This document shows, in pieces, positions 2 through 29,716 of a DNA stretch of 64,000 nucleotides. This DNA is from a virus. Within the stretch, counting starts at the first letter, position 1. Each line of letters begins with the position of its first letter. The DNA lies in IMG/VR virus record IMGVR_UViG_3300042894_007079, positions 1 to 64,000 of that record; one strand, 5' to 3'. The notes under the pieces were generated by a model, which saw nothing but the letters and a program-made list of their open reading frames with translations, ran no database searches and had not been told where the DNA came from. Made by a program: the position numbers and the translations under genes.

Positions 2-1999
2 AGAGCAGGTGTAACATTCAAAATGTCAGCTGATGAACAACAAGAGTATGTTAAATGTGCCTTAGATGTTCACTATTTTGTAGAAAAATACTGTAAAGTA
101 AAAAGAGAAGACGGTTCAATTGGTAATATTCTATTAAGAGATTATCAAAAAGAAATACTGGATAATTTCGTAAGTAGTCGATTTAATATTCTGATGGCAT
201 CTCGTCAGGTAGGAAAAACTATTTCATCTGCAATTTTTATGCTACATAAAATTCTTTTTGATAATGACAAAAACATTATGATTGTTGCCAACAAAGGTGA
301 TACGGCTGTTGAAATCGTAGATAAGATTAAATCTATTTACTCGCTTCTACCTTTCTTTTTGAAACCAGGTATCAAAACATGGAATCAAAAGTCACTAACA
401 TTCGAAAATGGATGTAGAATTAAAACATCAGCTAGAACAAAGACACCAGCCATTGGTTTTACCATTGACGTTCTTTACTTAGATGAGTTTGCTCATATTC
501 CTTCAAATATTATTGAACCTTACTATACTGCTGCTTTTCCAACAACTGCCGCTGTTCAGAACTCAAAGATTATCATAACATCTACGCCTAATGGTATGAA
601 CCTTTTTCATAAATTATTGACAGATGCTGAAAGACCTCAAGGTGATCCACTCAAAAACAACTATAAGGCAATGCGTGTCTATTGGTATCAAGTACCTGGT
701 AGATTTGTTACTTATATAAGATTAAACCATCATAATTTATATGAATATGGATTCACAAAAGAAGAAGTTTTTGAACAGTGTGTACAAAAGTGGGGCCATT
801 TGACTAAAATTGATATGGGTTATAATTCCGACCTACAAAAGGATGTTATCTATATTTTTAATAATGAAAATTGTTCTGATGATGATGTCAAAAATTCTTT
901 TGTTGTAGATTCAAAAGGTATTGAGATACCAATTAGAGCTTTATCAGAAGTTACGACCTGGAAGGAAGAGGCAATAAAAGATATTGGTGGAGAAGACGCG
1001 TTCAATCAGGAGTATGGTTTAAGATTTATTAATGCTTCAAAATCGCTTCTTAACGAATCAATTATAGATGAATTGTTGAAAAACAAAAAACTTTATGAGT
1101 GGGAGGAGTTAGATGAGTTTGAAAGAAAATTAAAATTTAGTTATAAAGATTTAAGATGGGTACAGGATGATGATTTGTTCTTACCGATAAAAAGAAAAGA
1201 GTATAAGTTTGTAGTTTCTGTTGATATTTCTGAAGGTTTAGGACAAGATTATTCCGTTATTAATGTTTTTAGAATAAATCACAAATCAAAAGATACTATA
1301 GAAGTACAAAAAGCGGCTTATAAATCACTGGTAGATTTTTTTAGATTAGACCAGGTAGCAATTTTTAGAAGTAATCTATGTTCCGTTAAGCAATTAGCCG
1401 AGTTTCTTTATGTTTTAGTATTTGAATATCTAAATCCAGAAAATGTAAGAGTGGTCTTAGAATTAAACAATTATGGTAATACGTTGTTAGCTGAAATGCC
1501 ACACGTGTTTGATGGTAACAATGATTATGGTTCATCTGTATTTGTTAGATATAAACACAGAGCTGATTCTACTGAAGAAAAGGTAGGTCTTAAAGTTGGT
1601 GAAAATAAAAATTTATTAGTAAAAGACTATCAAGACCTGATGATGTCTAAAGGATTTTATATCAATAACGAAGATACAATTCGTGAAATCACTACATTTG
1701 TTAAACATACTACAACAGCTGGTAATATCAGATATGCTGCTGATGTTGGTCATGATGATTGTGTTATGACAATCGTCAATGCTACATCTATATTTTCAAA
1801 ACCAGAGTTCAAAGAGTCTTGTGAAGAGTGGATGAACCGACATATTGACAAGAGTACATCATCTTATATAAACGAATGTTTAAAACAAGTCGATTTTGTC
1901 GAAGGTTTAGACTATAGTCAATTATTAAGAGTAAGAAGACAAGTGTTAAGTCGTAATAGAGGTCAGGGTGGTGCTGGAAACTGGTTTGGAACCAATTAA
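2..1999 (+). CDS. terL: Terminase large subunit, gp17-like (5' end outside the window)
   Basis: This is the DNA packaging motor: an ATPase that drives DNA into the prohead plus a nuclease that cuts concatemers. Counting from the ATG at 23, the Walker A motif ASRQVGKT lies at residues 59-66 and Walker B VLYLDE at 150-155, followed by the coupling motif TSTPNG near 187. The RNase H-fold nuclease begins at VVSVDISEG (Asp401, Asp409) and ends with a GHDDCV acidic motif. The frame stays open to the left edge, and the residues before the ATG look like family sequence, so the real start is probably outside the window. A stretch of about 70 residues between the ATPase and nuclease domains (about 226-300) seems longer than in T4. 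The gene converges directly on clpS with no spacer. Confidence 0.95.
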   Translation, partial: RAGVTFKMSADEQQEYVKCALDVHYFVEKYCKVKREDGSIGNILLRDYQKEILDNFVSSRFNILMASRQVGKTISSAIFMLHKILFDNDKNIMIVANKGDTAVEIVDKIKSIYSLLPFFLKPGIKTWNQKSLTFENGCRIKTSARTKTPAIGFTIDVLYLDEFAHIPSNIIEPYYTAAFPTTAAVQNSKIIITSTPNGMNLFHKLLTDAERPQGDPLKNNYKAMRVYWYQVPGRFVTYIRLNHHNLYEYGFTKEEVFEQCVQKWGHLTKIDMGYNSDLQKDVIYIFNNENCSDDDVKNSFVVDSKGIEIPIRALSEVTTWKEEAIKDIGGEDAFNQEYGLRFINASKSLLNESIIDELLKNKKLYEWEELDEFERKLKFSYKDLRWVQDDDLFLPIKRKEYKFVVSVDISEGLGQDYSVINVFRINHKSKDTIEVQKAAYKSLVDFFRLDQVAIFRSNLCSVKQLAEFLYVLVFEYLNPENVRVVLELNNYGNTLLAEMPHVFDGNNDYGSSVFVRYKHRADSTEEKVGLKVGENKNLLVKDYQDLMMSKGFYINNEDTIREITTFVKHTTTAGNIRYAADVGHDDCVMTIVNATSIFSKPEFKESCEEWMNRHIDKSTSSYINECLKQVDFVEGLDYSQLLRVRRQVLSRNRGQGGAGNWFGTN

Positions 2000-18396: not shown

Positions 18397-18821
18397 GCTG
18401 CTTTTTTTGGTAGTTCAAAATAAAAATCAATTACTTGTCCTACTTTTATATGAGTATTTTGATAAAGTTTTAAATCTATATTGCTATCAAGTAAGTTTCT
18501 TAGAATATTTCCAAATGTTGTATTTAAAGCAGTTATCGAGACTTTTAAGTCAATGACATTATTTTCTAATATTATAAACGTTAGTTTGTTTATGACAGCG
18601 CACGCACCACTTGTATTCATTATATCAGTTGATATATTTACATAGAAAACACTTTGTGAATTAGGAATGTCAACTTCAAATTCTATCTTTTTATCTGATT
18701 CTAATAACTGATTTAGATTTATTTCTCGTTTGTATTTTTTCCAATTTGAAAATCTAGATAATAAATTCTCATAATCACTTATTTTATTATTATTTAACTC
18801 TACATTAAATTCACTTTTCAT
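18393..18821 (-). CDS. Unrecognised 142-residue protein
   Basis: A beta-rich protein (IEFEVDIPNSQSVFYVNIST, LTFIILENNVIDLKVSIT) with a helical N-terminus. No family recognised. It overlaps genes on both sides (1 nt with rnr, 4 nt with the next), so it may act with RNase R, but this is inferred from context only. Confidence 0.55.
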   Translation of the reverse strand: MKSEFNVELNNNKISDYENLLSRFSNWKKYKREINLNQLLESDKKIEFEVDIPNSQSVFYVNISTDIMNTSGACAVINKLTFIILENNVIDLKVSITALNTTFGNILRNLLDSNIDLKLYQNTHIKVGQVIDFYFELPKKAA

Positions 18822-20698
18822 TAGAATAAACTAAAATCAATTTGTTTCTTTTCTAAATCAACTCCCATAACTACAACTTTGATTGGGTCTCCCAATCTTA
18901 TTTTATTACCCATTTCATCTGATATCGTGTAATTATCCAGGTCTAGTTTTACTTTACCAATTGTTGAATATCTAACTAATCCCTCGCATTTAGATTCTGT
19001 TAATTCTACATACATTCCCCAATCTGTAACTCCTGATACAATTCCATCATAAACATGTCCAATTTTGTCTTGTAAGTATTCTGCTTGTTTATATTTTATA
19101 GAGTCTCTTTGAGCTTTTGAAGACAGTAATTCTCTATTAGAACACCATTTTGCTTGGTCTTCTATTTTACCGGGATTTCCTTGTTTTCCTTTATTTAGGT
19201 AATCAAAAAGAATTCTGTGTGTTATTAAGTCGGGATATCTTCTAATTGGTGAAGTAAAGTGTGAGTAGTGACTGAAACCTAATCCGTAATGACCGATGTT
19301 CTTAATCGTGTAAGTTGCTTTAGACATACATCTTGTAACAAGTGTTTGTATCATATTTTCTTCCGGTGTTCCTTTGATGTCCTTAAGAAGTTGATTTATT
19401 GATGATTTTAGTTCGTCTCCTTCTCCCTGAAGTGAGACACTGTGTCCGAAGTTTTGGCAAACATTTTCTAATTGAATTAATTTTTCTTCGTTTGGTGTGT
19501 CATGAACTCGATATACATTAAACCACTGGTTGTCTGAAAGAATTTTAGCAACTGATTTATTCGCCAGTAGCATAAATTCTTCAATTAGTTTGTTAGCCTC
19601 TTTTTGTTCTTTAAAGTAAACACCAATTGGTTTCTTGTTGTCTTCTGCTAATTTGAATCTTACTTCAATTCCACCCATCTCAATAGAACCATCTTTAATT
19701 CTTTTCTTTCTGATTTTTTGAGCAAGTCCATTTAGAATTCTAATTTCATTGTAAAAGTCACCGTCAAATCCTTCGATTATTTCTTGAGCTTCTTCATATG
19801 TAAATCTTCTATCAGAGTGAATTACTGTTTTACCGTGCCATTCTTTTAATATTTTACCATCTTTGTCAATGTTAAATATTACTGAAAATGCCAATCTATC
19901 TTCATGTGGTTTTAAAGAACATATTCCGTTACTCAATCTTTCCGGTAACATAGCAACACATCTATCGACGAGATATACAGATGTAGCTCTTTTAAAAGCT
20001 TCTTCATCTAATTTTGTACCTGGTTTAACATAATGCCCGACATCGGCAATATGAACACCAACTTCTATATTATTTTCATTGATTACTTGAATTGAAATGG
20101 CATCATCAAAATCTCTAGCATCTACTGGGTCGATTGTTATAGTAGTAATATTTCTAATATCTTTTCTTTTAATAATTTCATTTTCAAAGATAACTTCTGG
20201 TACTAATTCAGATTCATTTAGTACATCTTGTGGAAAATCAACTGGTAGGTTGTACTCGTACATAATTGAATTCATTTCGGCGTTGTTATCACCTGCGTCT
20301 CCGAGAATTTTAATTATTTTTCCTTGTGGTGATTTTGAGTCTTCCCATTTTGTTAGCTCGACTATAACTTTTTGACCATCTTTTGCGACTAAACCGCCTT
20401 TGATGTAAAAATCTACAGATAGTTTATCACTATCTGAAATTACAAATGTGGATTTTTTTCCAATTTGTACTCTACCGACAAATTCTTTTCTAAATCTTGA
20501 GATTACCTCTACTACTTTTCCTTCTAACTTCTTTTCACCTTTGAATATTTCTACAGTTACTGTATCTAAATGTAAAGATGTGTTGGTATTTTTTCGATGT
20601 ATAAAGATTGATTTGTCTTCTATTGTTAAACTAGCATTCCCGTTATTTGAGAATTCTATTTGACCTTTATATCGGTCACCTTCTATTAATTGTATCAT
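18821..20698 (-). CDS. rnr: RNase R-type 3'-5' exoribonuclease
   Basis: RNase R degrades structured RNA and, with tmRNA-SmpB, non-stop mRNA. The 625 residues hold two cold-shock domains (about 1-150), the RNB catalytic domain and a C-terminal S1 domain (about 550-625). The metal-binding aspartates are complete in TIDPVDARDFDDA (Asp190, 196, 198, 199); HFTSPIRRYPDL and GHYGLGFSHY are also intact. It lacks the N-terminal helix-turn-helix and the basic C-terminal tail of E. coli RNase R and closely resembles Bacteroidetes enzymes. It heads a three-gene coupled run. Its presence with a tmRNA gene on the same phage suggests a joint role. Confidence 0.95.
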   Translation of the reverse strand: MIQLIEGDRYKGQIEFSNNGNASLTIEDKSIFIHRKNTNTSLHLDTVTVEIFKGEKKLEGKVVEVISRFRKEFVGRVQIGKKSTFVISDSDKLSVDFYIKGGLVAKDGQKVIVELTKWEDSKSPQGKIIKILGDAGDNNAEMNSIMYEYNLPVDFPQDVLNESELVPEVIFENEIIKRKDIRNITTITIDPVDARDFDDAISIQVINENNIEVGVHIADVGHYVKPGTKLDEEAFKRATSVYLVDRCVAMLPERLSNGICSLKPHEDRLAFSVIFNIDKDGKILKEWHGKTVIHSDRRFTYEEAQEIIEGFDGDFYNEIRILNGLAQKIRKKRIKDGSIEMGGIEVRFKLAEDNKKPIGVYFKEQKEANKLIEEFMLLANKSVAKILSDNQWFNVYRVHDTPNEEKLIQLENVCQNFGHSVSLQGEGDELKSSINQLLKDIKGTPEENMIQTLVTRCMSKATYTIKNIGHYGLGFSHYSHFTSPIRRYPDLITHRILFDYLNKGKQGNPGKIEDQAKWCSNRELLSSKAQRDSIKYKQAEYLQDKIGHVYDGIVSGVTDWGMYVELTESKCEGLVRYSTIGKVKLDLDNYTISDEMGNKIRLGDPIKVVVMGVDLEKKQIDFSLF

Positions 20699-21286: not shown

Positions 21287-23392
21287 ATGAAACCAGTATT
21301 AATCGTAGAAAATTCAACGAATGCTCTAATACGAGAAAATGCGTCCGGTAAAAAAGACTACGTTTTAGGCGGTACCTTCACTGAATTTGGTGTGAAGAAC
21401 CGTAATGAGCGTATCTACACGGCCGACAGATTCTTGCCAGCATTGGACGAATTAAATGAAAGAATGAATAGCCTTGGTGCTGTTTATGGTGAGTTCGATC
21501 ACCCAGATGTTTTTGACACTTCGTTAGCAAGAGCATCCCACATTATCACAAAAGCACAGTATGTTAAAGAACAAAACATCGTTGCTGGTGAAATCCGACT
21601 TCTAAGCACTTATTGGGGTAAAGAGGCTAAAGCATTGGTAGACGATGGTTGTCCAGTATTCGTTTCTTCTAGAGCGGCTGGTATTACTGAGTCTGATGGT
21701 TCTGTTTCTTTAAAGAAGTTATTCACTTATGATATCGTAGCTGACCCAGGTTTTGCGTCAGCAAAAATGAGTGTAAAGGTTCTTAATGAGTCTTTAGGTT
21801 ACACTAATCCGCAATCTAACTTTAGGATATATGAAATGTCCGACGAGTCAAAAATAAATGAATTATTCAATATGAACAATAACGAGTTTGTAACTAAAAA
21901 ACAGTTAACAGATTATTCACAATATCTGGTAAACGAAATTGCTTCTACTAAAAAAGAGGTAAAAAGTGCTATCACTAAGGGTAATATGTCTCCTAAGAAA
22001 TTAGAGCAATTACTTGAGTACTATGAAGAATTAAACAACACTAATGAGAAAGTTGTTAAATATTTAGATTACTTAGCTGAAAAAATTCAAGTTGTAGTTA
22101 ATGAGAACAAATCTCTTAAATCAACAACTGAAAAATTAGCTAAACATAATGACTATTTAGCTGAAAATCTTGAGAAAGCAATTAACTACACTGAGTATGT
22201 TGCTGAAAATCTTGACAAAAATATCGAGTATTCTGAGTATTTAGCTGAGAATTTAGATAGAAACATTTCTTATTCGGAATATATTGCTGAAAACTTAGAT
22301 AAAAATATTTCTTACTCTGAGTATTTAGCTGAAAACTTAGATAAGAATATTGCTTACTCTGAGTATATCGCTGAAAATCTTGATAAAAACATCGCTTACT
22401 CTGAATACATCGCTGAAAACTTAGATAAGAATATTGCTTACTCTGAGTATATCGCTGAGCACGTTGATAATTCAATTGCTTATTCTGAATATTTAGCTGA
22501 GCATGTTGAGGGTAACATCGCTTACTCCGAATACATCGCTGAACATTTAGATGATAATATTGCTTATTCTGAATATATCGCTGAAAATCTTGACAAATCA
22601 ATTAACTATCAAGGAATGATTGTTGAGAAATTAAATACAAAAGGAAGTAGATTATTTGAATCTATGGATGAGGCTTTTCCTTCATTAACTTCTGCTGGTT
22701 TTGAAAACGTAGAAGATGAAAAAGAGGAAGAACAATCACATAATTATGATTATAAAGGAATGCCATCAAAAGAAGATGATGAAAAACATTATATGATGAA
22801 TAAAGATGATGAAGATGTAATGGATAAAGAAGAGAATATGGAACCAAACTCTTATGAGGTTTCTGGAAACAATGACTCTGAATTATCTGAATCTATTAAT
22901 AAACTTATTGAAGAAGCTAAAAAACGTAAAGTTTCTGAAACAACTGACTTGAATTTCTTAAAGTTCTTAAACAAGTCTCAAGTTGACAGCTATTATGCAC
23001 TATCCGATGAGGAACAAGAATCTGTAAAACTTCACATAAACGAAAGAAGTTACTTCACACAGAAAGATGTTCTTACATTAGTTGCTGAAGCTCTATCTAC
23101 TAAGAACGAAACTCTTGAAGAAAGAGTAATCAGATTAATGCCTGAAAACACTAAGGCTATCTGGGAACAGTTGACAGACTCTTCTAAAAAATCGGTGCTT
23201 TCACAAGCAAGACTTTATCCTGAAGATGTTTTAAAAACTGAATCACAAGTTGAACATTTCTGGTTAACTAGAAATCTCAAAAAGAATGAATCTGTGACTA
23301 AAAAATTAGTTTCTCACGAAGCTCTTATCCAAGAGGATAAACTTTCTGACAATGAAGCTCAAGCAATTTTAGAAAGATTCAAAAACATTTAA
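21287..23392 (+). CDS. gp21: Prohead protease (gp21-like) fused to a scaffold/core domain
   Basis: Residues 1-170 match the U9/S80 prohead protease: NRNERIYTADRFLPAL, then VYGEFDHPD (catalytic His72) and PVFVSSRAAG (catalytic Ser127/128). A KVLNES site (Glu168) at the end of the protease region fits self-cleavage. Residues 190-480 form a long coiled coil with eleven 14-residue repeats, followed by a Glu/Asp-rich linker and a helical C-terminal part (540-701). In T4, protease gp21 and scaffold gp22 are separate genes; here one 701-residue chain appears to do both jobs. A TTATTATATATA box lies about 36 nt upstream, and the major capsid gene follows. Confidence 0.85.
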   Translation: MKPVLIVENSTNALIRENASGKKDYVLGGTFTEFGVKNRNERIYTADRFLPALDELNERMNSLGAVYGEFDHPDVFDTSLARASHIITKAQYVKEQNIVAGEIRLLSTYWGKEAKALVDDGCPVFVSSRAAGITESDGSVSLKKLFTYDIVADPGFASAKMSVKVLNESLGYTNPQSNFRIYEMSDESKINELFNMNNNEFVTKKQLTDYSQYLVNEIASTKKEVKSAITKGNMSPKKLEQLLEYYEELNNTNEKVVKYLDYLAEKIQVVVNENKSLKSTTEKLAKHNDYLAENLEKAINYTEYVAENLDKNIEYSEYLAENLDRNISYSEYIAENLDKNISYSEYLAENLDKNIAYSEYIAENLDKNIAYSEYIAENLDKNIAYSEYIAEHVDNSIAYSEYLAEHVEGNIAYSEYIAEHLDDNIAYSEYIAENLDKSINYQGMIVEKLNTKGSRLFESMDEAFPSLTSAGFENVEDEKEEEQSHNYDYKGMPSKEDDEKHYMMNKDDEDVMDKEENMEPNSYEVSGNNDSELSESINKLIEEAKKRKVSETTDLNFLKFLNKSQVDSYYALSDEEQESVKLHINERSYFTQKDVLTLVAEALSTKNETLEERVIRLMPENTKAIWEQLTDSSKKSVLSQARLYPEDVLKTESQVEHFWLTRNLKKNESVTKKLVSHEALIQEDKLSDNEAQAILERFKNI
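22151..22612 (+). repeat. Eleven 42-bp repeats coding a 14-residue coiled-coil unit
   Basis: The consensus unit is EYIAENLDKNIAYS. Fourteen residues equal two heptads, so the array should form an uninterrupted coiled coil. Central copies are almost identical; the first and last diverge. Confidence 0.9.
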
Positions 23393-23471: not shown

Positions 23472-25175
23472 ATGTCACACATTAGAATAGACAAATCAAA
23501 AGCTGTTAAGAAGTGGTCTCCAGTATTGGAAAACATGGGTGTTACGGGTGAAAGAGTAGAATGGATGGCGGAATACGCTGAGTTCCACTCAATCAACGAA
23601 AACGCTTACGTTAACGCTTCTAACGTATCAGGTATGGGCGCTGTTGTAGCTGCTCAGCCTGCTTCATTAGCAGGTCAAACTGCTCTTACATCTGGTTCAC
23701 AAATTGGATCAGGTGATGTTGGTCAAAACTTATTACCAGTTGCAATGAAAATTGCTGCTCAAACAATCGGTCTTGATCTTGTTGCTGTTAAACCTTCTCC
23801 AGGTCCAAAAATCGATTTACTTTACATTGACTTCCGTTATGATGATACAAGAGATGGAGCAAACGACGAGAGACCACAAGTATTCAAATTATACGCATCT
23901 AACGTTGCTGCTATCAACACTGCTATCGTAGCTGACTTAGCTGCTGCTACTCCAGCAATCGTACAATCATCAGGTGGTTTACAAGGTGGTAGATTATTCT
24001 ACAACATCAATACAGGTGCTTCTGCTACCACTGACACAGGATCTAAGCTAAACTTAGTTGAGTTCTTAGGTTTCTCTCGTGTAGATGGATATCCAATGTT
24101 CAAAGCTTACAGACAGTTTAACACTGCTCACACAGCGGTTGGAACTGCTGGTACTCTTTGGTCTTTCGATCCAACAAGAAACACATTTAACCCAACTGCT
24201 TCTATGGTATCTCAAATCGTTGATATCTCTGGTGTTGTTCCTAACGCTGGTACAAAAGAAATCCAATTGGTATCTGCTCTTGAAGATCATATCCCAGGAT
24301 TCTCTGCAAACTGGACACAAGGTGGAACTGGTTTCACAGGTAATTATCCAATGTCTCGTCAAGATGATGATGATACTTATTCTGGTGTTATTGGACCAAA
24401 AATCTCTTCTAAAACTATCGCAGTTGGTACTATCGAAGTATCTTCAGCTCTTAGAAGAACTGAAATTGAAGATATCAAAGCTAACACAGGTATGGATATC
24501 GTTCAAAAAATGGAATCTATCCTTGTTAATGAATTATCTCAAACAATTTCTAAGCAAATCGTTGCTAAGATTTTTGAAATGGGTGAACTTAACAGAACAT
24601 CTGCTCCTGCTGCTTCAAATACTTATTCTGGTAATATCACAAATATGACAATATTTGACTTAGATACAGAGTATGCTACAGGTGCTGGTGCTGCTGTAGG
24701 TGGTGAAACTACTCACGCTGTACAAAGAAAACTTATCACTAAGATTGCTCACGCTTCTAACTACATCGCTACTGAAGGTCGTGTAGGTCCAGCTCAATAC
24801 CTTATCACAAACGGAGGTCTTGCTGCAGCTCTTTCTGATATTTCTGGATACACAATCAATCCACTTAAGTCTAAATTAAACGGACAAGGTCAATTGTACC
24901 CTGTAGGTTCAATTGGTGATATCTCTATCTATGTTGATCCATACATGAGATATAATGACAACAGAGTTGTTCTTGGTAGAAAGAACAATCCTGACCAACC
25001 AGGTATCATTTTCGTACCTTACTTAATGGCTCAGTCAATCTCTATCATTTCTGAAGCTACATTCGCTCCAAGAATGTTACTAAGAAGTAGATATGCAGTT
25101 GCTGAAGTTGGTTGGTTCCCACAAAAGCAGTTTATGACTATTAGAGTTGACGACGCTTACGGTCTACTTAACTAA
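23472..25175 (+). CDS. gp23: Major capsid protein gp23-like
   Basis: A 567-residue HK97-fold capsid protein of the T4 gp23 group. Residues 1-43 form the delta-like N-terminal part (SKAVKKWSPVLENMG) ending at SINE43, followed by NAYVNAS; cleavage after Glu43 would match the T4-type hydrophobic-x-Glu rule. The segment ALRRTEIEDIKANTGMD and the helix with ESILVNELSQTI correspond to the gp23 spine-helix region, and SNYIATEGRVGPAQY and NNPDQPGIIFVPY to the P-domain/C-terminal part. Codon use here looks tuned (many GCT, GGT and AAC), as expected for a very highly expressed gene. It sits between the protease/scaffold and a terminator. Confidence 0.93.
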   Translation: MSHIRIDKSKAVKKWSPVLENMGVTGERVEWMAEYAEFHSINENAYVNASNVSGMGAVVAAQPASLAGQTALTSGSQIGSGDVGQNLLPVAMKIAAQTIGLDLVAVKPSPGPKIDLLYIDFRYDDTRDGANDERPQVFKLYASNVAAINTAIVADLAAATPAIVQSSGGLQGGRLFYNINTGASATTDTGSKLNLVEFLGFSRVDGYPMFKAYRQFNTAHTAVGTAGTLWSFDPTRNTFNPTASMVSQIVDISGVVPNAGTKEIQLVSALEDHIPGFSANWTQGGTGFTGNYPMSRQDDDDTYSGVIGPKISSKTIAVGTIEVSSALRRTEIEDIKANTGMDIVQKMESILVNELSQTISKQIVAKIFEMGELNRTSAPAASNTYSGNITNMTIFDLDTEYATGAGAAVGGETTHAVQRKLITKIAHASNYIATEGRVGPAQYLITNGGLAAALSDISGYTINPLKSKLNGQGQLYPVGSIGDISIYVDPYMRYNDNRVVLGRKNNPDQPGIIFVPYLMAQSISIISEATFAPRMLLRSRYAVAEVGWFPQKQFMTIRVDDAYGLLN

Positions 25176-25253: not shown

Positions 25254-25637
25254 ATGAAACATTTAAAACAATTTGAATCTAAAAAAGAAAAGTTTCCTGA
25301 TATTAAAAAAATGGAAGTAGATGGATATACTATTCAACTTGGTAGAAATGCTAAATCAAATGATTATTTAACTTTTATAGTTGCCGATGATGAAGACATT
25401 TGGATGCATGTTAAGGGTGTTCCTGGAAGCCATGTTGTTATAAGAGTTAGCGAAAACCTACCAACACAGGAAATAATAAAGTTTGCGGCTAACCTTGCTA
25501 AGAAAAATAGTAAAGCACCAAAAGACCAATCTGCAACTGTAGTTTTTTGCCAGAGAAAATATGTAAAAAAAGAAACTGGTATGAATGATGGTCAGGTAAG
25601 AGTTGATTACGTAAATGCGGAAGAAATCAGTATTTAA
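25254..25637 (+). CDS. Stand-alone NFACT-R (DUF814) RNA-binding protein with capsid-targeting-like leader
   Basis: After the leader MKHLKQFESKK, residues about 22-115 match the NFACT-R domain of RqcH/FbpA-type proteins, which in full-length RqcH helps hold stalled ribosomal complexes during alanine tailing. The hallmark motifs are all present in order: IQLGRNAKSNDYLTF, DIWMHVKGVPGSHVVIR, a helix with AANLAKKNSKA, and QRKYVKKETGMNDGQV. The NFACT-N, helix-hairpin-helix and coiled-coil parts of RqcH are absent. At 127 residues it is a one-domain protein. It could bind tRNA, rRNA or stalled complexes; the leader suggests delivery in the virion. Confidence 0.85.
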   Translation: MKHLKQFESKKEKFPDIKKMEVDGYTIQLGRNAKSNDYLTFIVADDEDIWMHVKGVPGSHVVIRVSENLPTQEIIKFAANLAKKNSKAPKDQSATVVFCQRKYVKKETGMNDGQVRVDYVNAEEISI

Positions 25638-25653: not shown

Positions 25654-27180
25654 ATGAATTTATTAAAATATAATAAAATTTTCGAATCCGGAACTCAATC
25701 TGACCCTGGTGCTCGTGGATACACTGGTGGTGGTTACAAATCTAAAGAAGAAGTCTTTGGAAAAAAAGAAGAACCTCAATCAGTAGATAAAACTGCGAGA
25801 ATTAAAATATCAAAAGAATTAGAAAAAGTACTTAAAACAATGGAAGATAATGATAGTTATCTGGCTTTTGAGATGCTTTGGTTAGGTGAACCAAGTTCAA
25901 AATATCAAAATGGTTTGGGTATTACTGATGTTACTGTATCTACTAAACCTTATTGCTTTGAAGTTACTATTACTGGAAAAAAATATGATATGAAAATTGG
26001 TAAGTTTTTCAGATATTATTGGCCTGGTTTACTTACAGAAGACGAAATAAAATCTTTTATTTATCAGTATAATGATATGACTTCTGATAATGTAGGCACT
26101 GACGCTACAACAACAGCTCGTAGAATTCAAGCTCCAACATTTTCATATAAACCTAAAGATGTTAAGGCTACATTCTTATCTTTAACAACTAAAACTTACC
26201 CACATGGATATGAAGATGAGGTTCTTCAGTTTTTACCTGATTTGAAAAAAGATGAAGTAGGTAATTATTATAAAATTATTGGCGAAGGTAAACAAAAAAC
26301 TATGTTTACTTGTCACTTAGACACTGCTGATAGAGACCAAAAAACAACAAAATTATTTGAATGTAATGGTCGAGTAGTGGAAGAAGGATATTCTTTTAGA
26401 CTTATCAAAACTGGTACTGGTGATGAGCACATTTATACGGATGGGCATTCTATATTAGGAGCTGATGATAAAGCGGGAACTGCTGTTATGCTTTATATGA
26501 TGGCTAATAATGTTCCTGGTATCTACTATTTCTTTATTGGTGAAGAAAGAGGTGGTATTGGCTCAAACGCTCTTTCTGCTATTTATGACAAAATGGATTT
26601 TTTATCTGATGTTAAGCATTGTGTTTCTTTTGATAGAAGAAGAACTACATCTGTAATCACTCATCAATTGGGAAGACAATGTTGTTCAAATGAGTTTGGA
26701 CAAGCACTTTGTGATGAGTATAACAAACACGGTTTAAATCTATCTTTAGATACAACCGGTGTTTATACTGATTCTGCTTCACTTATGGAAGATATCGCTG
26801 AGTGTACAAATATATCAGTTGGTTATTATAATGAACACCGAGGAACTGAAATGTTAAACATAACACACTTAATTAAACTAGCTGAGGCTTCGGTCAAAGT
26901 TAATTGGTCTGATTTGCCTGTTAAAAGAAAAATTGGATATAATGAAGAGCTATTTGCTAAACACAAAACACTTATCAATGAAATAAAGAAAAATGTGTTT
27001 GGTATTGATGTAAAAGTTGTTGGTAAAGATGATAGAATATTTATTAGTTTAGATATGGAAGAACCTGATATGAGTGAGGTTTATGATTCTCTTATTAGAG
27101 TACAAACAATATTAAATAAGTATAAAATCGAAGATACTGGCTTATTTGAAGAAACATATTTTAAAATTGAATTAAGATAA
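25654..27180 (+). CDS. Zinc metallopeptidase (M20/M28/M42-like) with leader and extra domains
   Basis: The 508-residue protein starts with MNLLKYNKIFES, a capsid-targeting-like leader (IFE then Ser, Glu11). Residues 48-150 form an additional mixed domain. The peptidase domain (165-415) has the full co-catalytic zinc set: HLD at 221-223, GADDKAG near 269-275, GEERGG with Glu297/298, SFDRR with Asp327, and EHRG with His395. The C-terminal 80 residues add a small alpha/beta domain. A second copy lacking the leader and flanking domains lies at 58934-59725. The substrate is unknown. The leader implies packaging into heads, so it may act right after DNA entry. Confidence 0.85.
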   Translation: MNLLKYNKIFESGTQSDPGARGYTGGGYKSKEEVFGKKEEPQSVDKTARIKISKELEKVLKTMEDNDSYLAFEMLWLGEPSSKYQNGLGITDVTVSTKPYCFEVTITGKKYDMKIGKFFRYYWPGLLTEDEIKSFIYQYNDMTSDNVGTDATTTARRIQAPTFSYKPKDVKATFLSLTTKTYPHGYEDEVLQFLPDLKKDEVGNYYKIIGEGKQKTMFTCHLDTADRDQKTTKLFECNGRVVEEGYSFRLIKTGTGDEHIYTDGHSILGADDKAGTAVMLYMMANNVPGIYYFFIGEERGGIGSNALSAIYDKMDFLSDVKHCVSFDRRRTTSVITHQLGRQCCSNEFGQALCDEYNKHGLNLSLDTTGVYTDSASLMEDIAECTNISVGYYNEHRGTEMLNITHLIKLAEASVKVNWSDLPVKRKIGYNEELFAKHKTLINEIKKNVFGIDVKVVGKDDRIFISLDMEEPDMSEVYDSLIRVQTILNKYKIEDTGLFEETYFKIELR

Positions 27181-27757: not shown

Positions 27758-27766
27758 TTAAACTTT

Positions 27767-27797
27767 TTTGTATTTACAGATATTATATATACATTTG
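27767..27797 (+). promoter_or_regulatory. Bacteroidetes-type housekeeping promoter for the tmRNA
   Basis: TTTG (27767-27770), a 19-bp spacer and TACATTTG (27790-27797) match the Bacteroidetes consensus TTTG / TAnnTTTG. A start about 6 nt downstream gives a leader of roughly 17 nt before the mature tmRNA 5' end. This differs from the TTAATATATA box of the structural genes. Confidence 0.7.
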
Positions 27798-27819: not shown

Positions 27820-28195
27820 GGGGATGTCATAGAATAGATTCATAGAGTAGTGGTAGTTATGCAGGTGTCGGATGGTCAAGTAACCGACTAATAAATTTGG
27901 TGACAAAAAGTCGTAAATGGCAAAACAAATGAAGTAGCATCCCGTGAAGATTTAGTAGCGGCGTTACAAAACAACATGCTTAAGGCAGAAGAGCTATCTT
28001 TAGTTTAATATTTTAAGCTTTCGAAAAAATTCTCCAGCTGAATCACACAGTTAAAAATGTGAAACCAGAATTGTTAGAGTGATGGGTTGTTCAACTAACT
28101 ATTTTGTAAGTTTCGAAAAACTTTCTAAGCCTGTGAATGAATAATTATTGTTAACTAGGGAAGACACGATGGGCAGTACATCGTCATCTCCACTA
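27820..28195 (+). ncRNA. ssrA: Phage-encoded tmRNA (ssrA)
   Basis: tmRNA rescues ribosomes from non-stop mRNA and tags the unfinished protein. The acceptor stem pairs GGGGATG (27820-27826) with CATCTCC (28185-28191), giving a G3-U70 wobble (27822/28189) and discriminator A (28192), the alanine identity signals. P2 pairs TAGTTA (27854-27859) with TAACTA (28152-28157), extended by GCAGG/CCTGT (27861-27865/28130-28134). Pseudoknot PK1 is GTCGG/CCGAC (27867-27871/27884-27888) plus GTCA/TGAC (27875-27878/27901-27904). GTC just before the resume codon matches E. coli. Several stems follow the tag frame. The 3' end reads ACTA where ACCA would be expected, so CCA must be added. The T-arm loop (GGCAGTA) lacks the usual TTC. 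No smpB gene is visible, so host SmpB would be needed. Confidence 0.9.
27913..28008 (+). other. tmRNA tag-peptide reading frame (31 codons plus TAA)
   Basis: The resume codon GTA (27913) directly follows GTC and the A-rich spacer after PK1. The frame encodes 31 residues beginning VNGKTNE, with EDLVAA in the middle and ending AEELSLV. Host Bacteroidetes tags are about 8-10 residues ending in LAA. The tag is long, hydrophobic at its end and lacks the ALAA terminus read by ClpXP. Confidence 0.82.
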
Positions 28196-28202
28196 AAAAA
28201 TT

Positions 28203-28228
28203 AAAGTCCACTTTGGTGGACTTTTTTG
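28203..28228 (+). terminator. Rho-independent terminator of the tmRNA gene
   Basis: A 7-bp stem (AGTCCAC/GTGGACT) extended by A-T pairs, a TTTG loop and a T run, 10 nt after the tmRNA 3' end. Confidence 0.92.
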
Positions 28229-28248: not shown

Positions 28249-28785
28249 ATGAGTTATATCAATTCTTTTAAAGGTCGGTACTTTTTTCTATCTAATTTTT
28301 ATCCGTGTGAAATTACACACAAAGGAATTACATATCCTTCTGTTGAACACTACTATGTTGCTTTAAAAGTTACTACGATGCAATTTATAGATGGTGTTTA
28401 TTATACAGCACCTGATTTTAGAGAGTTAATTGCTAGAATAAAAGAACCTGGTGATGTAAAAAAAATGGGAAGGCGTGTAAAGGTCAGAAGTGACTGGGAT
28501 GAAAAAAGATTAGGATTTATGGAGTGGGGTATAAAAGAAAAATTCAAAAATCCTAAATTAGCTGAAATGTTAATTGAGACTGGTGATTTAGATTTGATTG
28601 AAGGTAATAATTGGCATGATGTGTGGTGGGGCCAATGTTCTTGTCCAAAATGCAAAGGTGGTGGTCACAATTATTTGGGTAAAATTTTAATGCAAATTAG
28701 AAGTGAATTAAGACAACAAAATGCGAGACCTTCACTAGAAGAAGAAATAAAAAACAAATTAAATAAAGAAAATGGCAGTCATTAG
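28249..28785 (+). CDS. NADAR (YbiA-like, DUF1768) protein
   Basis: NADAR proteins are N-glycosidases acting on NAD-derived or riboflavin-pathway metabolites, and some remove ADP-ribose from guanine in DNA. The 178-residue protein has the family signature GRYFFLSNFYPCEI...YPSVEHYYVALK at the N-terminus, then GRRVKVRSDWDEKRLGFMEWGI and a late IEGNNWHDVWWG block, all typical. A CSCPKC pair inserted before the last helix may bind zinc and is less usual. It overlaps the adenine methyltransferase gene by 14 nt, so the two are coupled. An anti-defence role is possible (inference). Confidence 0.85.
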   Translation: MSYINSFKGRYFFLSNFYPCEITHKGITYPSVEHYYVALKVTTMQFIDGVYYTAPDFRELIARIKEPGDVKKMGRRVKVRSDWDEKRLGFMEWGIKEKFKNPKLAEMLIETGDLDLIEGNNWHDVWWGQCSCPKCKGGGHNYLGKILMQIRSELRQQNARPSLEEEIKNKLNKENGSH

Positions 28786-29716
28786 TTATTTTGGTGGTAA
28801 GAGTTCCTCCGCATTTCAAGAATTAATCAATACTAAAATTCCCAAAACAGGAATTAAAACATATTTAGAGCCTTTCTCTGGCTCAATGGGAACATATATG
28901 GACGACCCAAACTTAAAGTTTGATGTAGTTATCTATAATGATAAAAATCGTCACCAGGTGAACTTATACAAGTGCGCATCGGAGCCTGAAACTTTTCTAA
29001 AATATTTAGAAAGATTAAAAGAAACTTTACTAAAGACTGATGAGACAGATCCGCTAAAAAAGTGGGACTTTTATAAGAAAATTTACAAAAAATATCAAAA
29101 GAATAACTTTCTTGATGATATGAATTTTGAAATTGGTGATTTTGGAAAAGCAGCAATCTATGCTTTTCTTATTACATCAGCTCATAATTCAGTTTATCCA
29201 AGAGGTGCTGGTTTTAATGGTTACAAAAAAGATAAAGACCGTCTTAAATTAGAAGTCCTTATTGATAAATTAAAAAAGAATAAATATACGCCTAAATTAA
29301 AATCAATTACTGATTTTTTAAACATTGATTTTGAAGAACTTATCAATAGATATGACGCTGAAGATACTTATCTTTATTTAGATCCACCATATGCTAGATT
29401 TAATGAAGATAAAGGTGAAGATGATGCTAAAAGACTTTTCTGGTATGGTGCTGATACTGAAGGTGTTTTTGGACCAGCTTCGCACAGAAGACTTTTGGAG
29501 CTATTAAAAAATACAAAATGTCGTTGGTCTTTATCATATTATTATTTTCCTTTACTGGAAGAGTTATTACCTAAAGATAAATACGTTTGGACTGAGAAAG
29601 AAGTATTTAGAAGCTCGGCACATGGTGGAAATAACTCTGATTTAAAAACAGAACAAGCTAAAGGAGTTGAATTGTTAATTATGAATTATAATCCAAAAAC
29701 TGGTGAAAAGTTATAA
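28772..29716 (+). CDS. DNA adenine-N6 methyltransferase (D12 class)
   Basis: This 314-residue Dam-like enzyme transfers methyl groups from SAM to adenine N6. Motif I appears as YFGGKSS at residues 5-11 with LEPFSGSMG near 34, and the catalytic motif IV is DPPY in YLYLDPPYARF near 207. The central region is helical, as in target-recognition domains of the class. Its recognition sequence cannot be read from the protein. It probably protects phage DNA from host restriction. Confidence 0.9.
   Translation: MAVISYFGGKSSSAFQELINTKIPKTGIKTYLEPFSGSMGTYMDDPNLKFDVVIYNDKNRHQVNLYKCASEPETFLKYLERLKETLLKTDETDPLKKWDFYKKIYKKYQKNNFLDDMNFEIGDFGKAAIYAFLITSAHNSVYPRGAGFNGYKKDKDRLKLEVLIDKLKKNKYTPKLKSITDFLNIDFEELINRYDAEDTYLYLDPPYARFNEDKGEDDAKRLFWYGADTEGVFGPASHRRLLELLKNTKCRWSLSYYYFPLLEELLPKDKYVWTEKEVFRSSAHGGNNSDLKTEQAKGVELLIMNYNPKTGEKL

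Follow-up and report, generated by a model that had tools for sequence, protein, structure and literature searches.

Genomic context of the tmRNA locus

The window, that is, the whole stretch of 64,000 nucleotides that was analyzed, carries an element with the parts of a one-piece tmRNA, which lies downstream of the major capsid protein gene (Table 1). An earlier note, made from the letters of this DNA, had listed an acceptor stem with the G3-U70 alanine signal, P2, an H-type pseudoknot, GTC before the resume codon, a 31-codon frame and a terminator, and all of these, the long P2 helix included, can be read in the window.

Table 1. Features of the tmRNA gene and its neighbors, in positions of the window.
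Feature	Position	Strand	Basis or remark
RNase R (VacB)	18821-20698	-	NCBIfam TIGR02063 RNase_R equivalog, 652.6 bits against a cut-off of 597.9
Prohead protease-like protein (S77, weak)	21287-23392		Long array of YSEYxAENLDKNI-type repeats
Major capsid protein (Gp23 family)	23472-25175	+	PF07068, 9.8e-27; anchor for the search of relatives
Stand-alone NFACT-R domain protein	25254-25637	+	PF05670, 1.5e-13; between capsid gene and tmRNA in most relatives
Peptidase (phrog_4191)	25654-27180		Between capsid gene and tmRNA
Putative promoter	27760-27797	+	AAACTTTTTTG box at 27760-27770; TACATTTG at 27790-27797, 22 nt upstream of the mature 5' end
tmRNA, mature RNA of 373 nt, CCA not encoded	27820-28192	+	Full-length alignment with RF00023; homologues
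P1 acceptor, 5' strand GGGGATG with G3-U70	27820-27826	+	Pairs 7/7 with 28185-28191
D-loop core TAGAAT (A18 = 27831, G19 = 27832)	27830-27835	+	Sequence comparison
PK1, H-type: S1 GTCGG/CCGAC, S2 GTCA/TGAC	27867-27904	+	Covariation
GTC, then resume codon GTA (Val)	27910-27915	+	Alignment with E. coli GCA-AAC-GAC
Tag frame, 31 codons and TAA (28006-28008): VNGKTNEVASREDLVAALQNNMLKAEELSLV	27913-28008	+	Codons 27913-28005 open
Extra hairpin inside the tag frame	27978-27994	+	Weak in the window copy (GCUU/GAGC)
Hairpin at the stop codon (H5-like)	28002-28019	+	In nearly all relatives, stems differing
PK2: S1 GCTG/CAGT, S2 TCAC/GTGA	28037-28062	+	Comparison of relatives
T arm ACGATG-GGCAGTA-CATCGT, non-canonical loop (G54 G55 C56 A57 G58)	28166-28184	+	Covariation
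P1 acceptor, 3' strand CATCTCC, and discriminator A28192	28185-28192	+	Pairing with 27820-27826
Intrinsic terminator, stem then T run	28203-28224	+	Sequence
NADAR-domain gene	28249-28785		Directly 3' of the tmRNA terminator in the family
Dam-type methylase gene	28772-29716		Directly 3' of the tmRNA terminator in the family, with NADAR

An IMG/VR scan with the capsid protein of the window gave 201 relatives, of which the best 80 loci were kept. The search for the element combined these best 80 of 201 capsid loci with a DNA-pattern scan and an iterated nucleotide profile, and it recovered the element in at least 70 loci, which give 49 distinct sequences of full or nearly full length. By blastn, the element also matched two complete genomes of uncultured huge phages, LR745206 (634,780 bp, 80% identity) and LR756502 (642,428 bp, 70%). 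Among the best 80 of the 201 capsid relatives, 50 of the 54 loci whose downstream flank measures 6 kb or more carry the tmRNA. Four capsid loci with such a flank (L070, L074, L075 and L082) did not match the family profile, and an Rfam scan of L070, L074 and L082 returned no tmRNA; in these four the gene appears to be absent or to have moved.

In nearly all of the 49 distinct relatives, the element keeps its place near the capsid gene. The order of the block is conserved as RNase R - S77 protease - capsid protein - NFACT-R - peptidase - orf191 - tmRNA - NADAR - Dam. In L009, L014, L019 and L050, the tmRNA-NADAR-Dam block 3' of the capsid gene is wholly or partly inverted, which fits an independent transcription of the tmRNA. 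NFACT-R is the RNA-binding domain of the ribosome quality control (RQC) factor RqcH/NEMF, and its gene is missing or diverged in L022, L028, L040, L045, L047, L057 and L063. RNase R, the exonuclease that in E. coli removes nonstop mRNA together with tmRNA-SmpB, lies upstream of the capsid gene, on the other strand, and its synteny is conserved; it has homologues in LR745206 (75%) and LR756502 (56-58%). The peptidase, NFACT-R and RNase R might share one clean-up function.

Identification of the tmRNA gene

The earlier note had placed the element at 27820-28195 and had proposed a covariance search and ARAGORN as a check. In a permissive search of 481 nt, RF00023 aligned end to end with exactly these positions (model positions 1-374, 18.6 bits, E=1.3e-5, a value that applies to the 481 nt and that scales, by our own calculation, to about 2e-3 for the 64-kb window); the mature RNA, however, ends at A28192, and its CCA is not encoded. 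The score of 18.6 bits, though, lies below the gathering score of 47, Rfam at its gathering threshold gave no match in the window, and ARAGORN found no tmRNA there. ARAGORN (v1.2.41) found none in the aligned relatives either. RF00023 searches of the whole window record, LR745206 and LR756502 missed the gene and returned only short tRNA-sized matches, none above the cut-off in either relative. The minimum free energy of the window copy alone is no better than that of shuffled sequences (z -0.08).

From the window sequence alone, the case for a tmRNA would be suggestive only. Its identity is settled by the comparative data, namely the 49 distinct relatives, the covariation and the conserved frame, and with them 27820-28192 is almost certainly a one-piece tmRNA gene on a huge-phage fragment. 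By its sequence, this gene of a huge (Mahaphage-type) phage looks functional and independently transcribed.

Structure of the RNA and its transcription signals

Helices were counted in 45 unique mature sequences and tag frames in the 49 distinct relatives. Gap placement in the MAFFT alignment kept RNAalifold from finding more than part of the structure, and helices were therefore counted by anchored extraction. P1 is 100% paired in the 45 sequences, with covariation at pairs 5 and 6, and G3-U70 is invariant (45/45). The 6-bp T-stem is 98.9% paired, compared with 68% when partners are shuffled among the 45 sequences, and five of its six pairs covary.

The acceptor stem, paired 7/7, is as the earlier note had it, but the T-loop, which it did not mention, is non-canonical. 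GGCAGTA is the commonest loop (22/45), and GTCAGTG/T is found in three. With positions 54-60 inferred by tRNA numbering, C56, R57 and G19 of the canonical TTCRANN arrangement are kept, and U54, U55, A58 and G18 are replaced in 42/45. A18 occurs with G55 in these 42 sequences, while G18 occurs with U55 in three (L022, L057 and L063), which may descend from one event and are counted as one swap rather than three. We regard the loop as a deviation of detail in a tmRNA that is complete in other respects, and it probably explains why ARAGORN misses the family. Contacts between the D- and T-loops are required for SmpB binding, according to a passage of PMC3968760 that cites Barends 2002; the loss of U54, U55 and A58 could impair tmRNA function unless SmpB has adapted.

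The H-type pseudoknot of the earlier note corresponds to PK1, whose S1 covaries at two positions in the 45 sequences; S2 was fitted per sequence and is the weaker evidence. It is not the only one, since at least one further pseudoknot, PK2, is present. An H-type pseudoknot with at least three G-C pairs follows the tag in 41/45 sequences, against a mean of 5.6 (maximum 9) in shuffles, and both S1 and S2 of PK2 covary. The stop codon lies within a hairpin in nearly all relatives, like H5 of known tmRNAs.

Upstream of the gene, TACATTTG is of the Bacteroidota -7 type TANNTTTG, a motif found within 55 nt upstream in 30/45 relatives (shuffles: mean 2.1, maximum 7), and an AACTTTT-type box is present in 41/45. 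A minority of relatives lack TTTG yet keep TATAATATATA, so the promoter may be phage-type. The terminator that the note had read in the window recurs in 42/45 relatives, with a sequence that differs between them.

The tag reading frame

The tag frame is open in 49/49 relatives, with 31 codons in 36 and 29 codons in 13, and it encodes 33 unique tags. Over the first 18 codons, pN/pS is 0.50 in this frame compared with 0.78 and 1.01 in the shifted frames, which indicates purifying selection on the frame. The 31-codon frame proposed for the window is borne out by both observations, and the frame from 27913 is very probably the tag. Its core is [VL]-N-G-[KN]-[TV]-N-[EQK]-V-[AG]-[ST]-x-EDLV-x-x-L. 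The last residue is always V (30/49) or A (19/49), the ends being ATV (9), ELV (8), VVA (6), SLV (5, the end of the window tag), ATA (4), ELA (3) and others, and the -AA end typical of ClpXP-read ssrA tags occurs in 0/49.

The resume codon, placed by alignment, is GUA or UUA (Val/Leu) in 49/49, where tmRNAs mostly have Ala and sometimes Gly (PMC3968760). The E. coli GCA-AAC-GAC is replaced by NUA-AAY-G[GA], with GUA/UUA in the family, AUA in LR756501 and UUA in the Lak phages. Among the 596 unique tags of the ARAGORN list, nine start with V, none with L, 12 end in V and 522 end in -AA. Tags of at least 29 aa make up only 3 of its 1269 entries; the published range runs from 8 to 35 residues (PMC3968760), so a long tag is in itself nothing new. 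The earlier note held the tag to be unlike those of hosts and pointed to long tags in some mycobacteriophages; in the ARAGORN list, Bacteroidota tags are indeed 9 aa long (GENNYALAA and similar), and the Bxz1/Catera tag has 25 aa and ends in AALV.

The in-tag hairpin is strong in most relatives, e.g. GATCTT..AAGATC, and its variants are compensatory: GATCTT/AAGATC, GCTCTT/AAGAGC, GTTCTT/AAGAAC, GATCC/GGATC, TTGGAG/CTCCAG and TCGGAG/CTCCGG. The tag length could accordingly be a by-product of RNA structure, an inserted hairpin whose pairing constrains the residues while host ClpXP reads the end as usual. Besides the compensatory changes seen in most relatives, this explanation would account for the high variability of the C-terminal half, where residues follow the palindrome (ILVEDL, LLVEEP, ISNRDL). 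We nevertheless consider it unlikely, as the first 18 codons, which lie outside the hairpin, are conserved as amino acids (EDLVAAL in most, pN/pS 0.50) and indels comprise whole codons (31 or 29 aa).

Partner genes in complete relatives

No SmpB or Clp gene lies within the 64-kb window; the record is a 64.8 kb fragment, about one-tenth of such a genome, and these partners are taken from relatives. SmpB is encoded in LR745206 and LR756502 (E about 1e-50; NCBIfam equivalog for LR756502), with a conserved tail of the KGKKxYDKRxxxKxR type in both. Two IMG/VR relatives agree with this: a contig of 385 kb (G025) encodes SmpB and a ClpC-like ATPase, and one of 118 kb (G020) encodes SmpB.

LR745206 has two ClpP paralogues and LR756502 three, and each has one ClpC-like ATPase of about 700 aa with a UVR motif and no Clp N domain, which scores below the ClpA/ClpB equivalog cut-offs of NCBIfam, so that its substrate preference is not predictable. 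In LR745206, there is no ClpX homologue, a motif test found neither Lon nor FtsH, and the ClpC-like ATPase is the only match of the Walker-A pattern used. In LR756502, the ClpC-like ATPase is likewise found without ClpX. We also examined LR745206 proteins for avoidance of C-terminal V/A, as a sign of a protease that reads these residues, and there was no clear signal (V 6.4% against 5.6% background, A 2.4% against 3.3%).

tmRNAs of other Mahaphages

A DNA search with the window tmRNA in Lak, LR756501 and LR756504 gave only chance pieces. The Rfam model did locate tmRNAs in Lak-A1, Lak-B5, Lak-C1, LR756504 (636 kb) and LR756501 (735 kb), all five of which encode SmpB. The Lak tag, LNDDEIDFRMAA, has 12 aa and ends in MAA, with a canonical T-loop; that of LR756504, LNDNVNSFEQSILNELFAPVEMAVAA, has 26 aa and ends in VAA; and that of LR756501, INGDYKMNAEDMMSIPTSLTGKVATESFVEDLVLA, has 35 aa and no -AA end. 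All begin with [VLI]-N-[GD]. In LR756501 (L123), the tmRNA (1272-1844, minus strand) has its T-loop split between UU and CGAAU by a group I intron (RF00028, 96 bits).

The phages with -AA tags, Lak and LR756504, encode ClpX (an NCBIfam equivalog in Lak-B5 and in LR756504), while LR745206, LR756502 and LR756501, with tags lacking -AA, have only ClpC-like ATPases and no ClpX; no ClpP was found by Pfam in LR756501. It appears that -AA tags go with a phage ClpX and other tags go without it, a pattern that covers four lineages at most and is a lead, not a proof. The ClpX of Lak-A1 (L151) carries a long intein-like insertion, and that of Lak-B5 is without it.

Proposed function of the tmRNA

Taken as a whole, these observations are best explained by a trans-translation system that belongs to the phage and uses a divergent degradation tag, an explanation in which we have good confidence. 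During infection, the tmRNA would be charged with alanine via G3-U70, bind the phage's own SmpB, rescue ribosomes stalled on broken mRNA, and add Ala and 31 residues to the unfinished proteins. Together with the phage RNase R, for mRNA decay, and the Clp proteins, it would form a phage-owned set for ribosome rescue and clean-up. The tag would most likely act as a C-terminal degradation signal of changed specificity, with a small hydrophobic end, V or A, instead of LAA. That it is a degradation signal of some kind we consider probable. In E. coli, ssrA variants ending in LVA and AAV are used to mark proteins for breakdown (PMC9382460); a V or A at the end is not known to make a tag inert.

The earlier note supposed that tagged products escape ClpXP, go to another protease or are stabilized. 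Escape from host ClpXP is possible. Another protease is the more interesting branch, as two complete relatives carry their own ClpP and a ClpC-like ATPase without ClpX. In these, the phage ClpC-like ATPase with the phage ClpP would be the best candidate reader, and host Clp proteases may read the tag too; that ClpC-ClpP is the main reader is a tentative proposal, to which we give somewhat less than an even chance. A bolder version, which we find rather doubtful, is an orthogonal viral system in which the altered D/T contact suits the phage SmpB rather than that of the host and the tag leads to phage ClpC-ClpP, not to host ClpXP.

Stabilization belongs to a reading in which ribosomes are recycled and the long V/A-ended tag does not degrade, sparing products from ClpXP or stabilizing them. 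Most tags of the family lack the -AA end common to 522/596 tags of the ARAGORN list, 30/49 end in V, and the conserved part is the N-terminal half, so another binding function might exist. Yet in 19/49 the last residue is A, among them tags with LVVA-, LATA- and ELELA-type ends, the LVA and AAV variants are used for degradation in E. coli (PMC9382460), and phages of this group devote genes to ClpP and a Clp ATPase; we consider a non-degrading tag distinctly unlikely. Far less probable still is that the tmRNA is an inhibitor or decoy of host trans-translation that titrates host SmpB, for which the altered T/D-loop contacts would suit host factors poorly and the TLD-only type molecule of mycobacteriophage DS6A is a precedent (PMC4131195): a decoy has no need for a 29-31 codon tag frame, a stop-codon hairpin and pseudoknots conserved in 49 sequences, nor for a phage SmpB with an intact KGKKxYDKRxxxKxR tail. 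Finally, chance resemblance or a decayed tmRNA remnant, with which the negative ARAGORN result, the Rfam score below gathering and the MFE z-score of about 0 would agree, is refuted by the covariation, conserved frame, synteny and regulatory signals in 49 relatives and keeps practically no probability.

Relation to known systems and significance

The phage-owned system that we favor resembles bacterial one-piece tmRNA (ssrA, RF00023) in P1 with G3-U70, the stem-less D region, T arm, long P2, PK1, tag frame, stop codon in a hairpin and pseudoknot after it, with the same order and lengths of parts. It differs in the GGCAGTA T-loop (against TTCRANN), A18/G55 (against G18/U55), the Val/Leu resume codon (against Ala/Gly) and the 31-codon tag with an internal hairpin. 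Phage tmRNAs are known from mycobacteriophages and phage G (PMC4131195), and a 2021 survey counted them in 402 phages (PMC9004378). In huge phages, including Lak phages and LR756504, tmRNA has been reported with SmpB (Al-Shayeb et al. 2020, PMC7162821), the tmRNAs being assigned with ARAGORN, and Bacteroidetes hosts were predicted for Mahaphages above 634 kb. Our family belongs to the same phage group, with tmRNA and phage SmpB, and LR745206 and LR756502 are such records; unlike Lak (12 aa, MAA, canonical T-loop) and LR756504 (26 aa, VAA), it has tags of 29-31 aa with a V/A end.

The tmRNA of mycobacteriophage Bxz1/Catera (tag ATDTDATVTDAEIEAFFAEEAAALV, 25 aa) is also phage-borne, with a long tag and an LV end, but it shows no sequence similarity, has an Ala resume codon and an actinobacterial host, and is already in the ARAGORN list. 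In Mesoplasma/Mycoplasma, tags of 23-31 aa are read by Lon (PMC9382460), which offers a precedent for a long tag without LAA and for a switch of protease specificity; that system is cellular, with a NYAFA-like end and Lon as reader, whereas here the candidate reader is ClpC-ClpP and LR745206 has no Lon motif. There were thus precedents for tmRNAs in phages, for SmpB in huge phages and for long tags; relative to the literature and databases compared, the family, its T-loop, its resume codon, the in-tag hairpin and the pattern of tag end and ClpX appear to be new.

An abundant tmRNA family that ARAGORN misses and that falls below the Rfam cut-off implies that counts of phage tmRNAs are too low. 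The family breaks two tmRNA rules, the TTCRANN T-loop and the Ala/Gly resume codon, and its natural 18/55 swap offers a way to study the recognition of the tRNA-like domain by SmpB. A further question that it raises is whether phages alter the tag that marks proteins for degradation and supply a protease to match; an orthogonal system, if true, would give the phage a private line of quality control and amino-acid recycling during infection.
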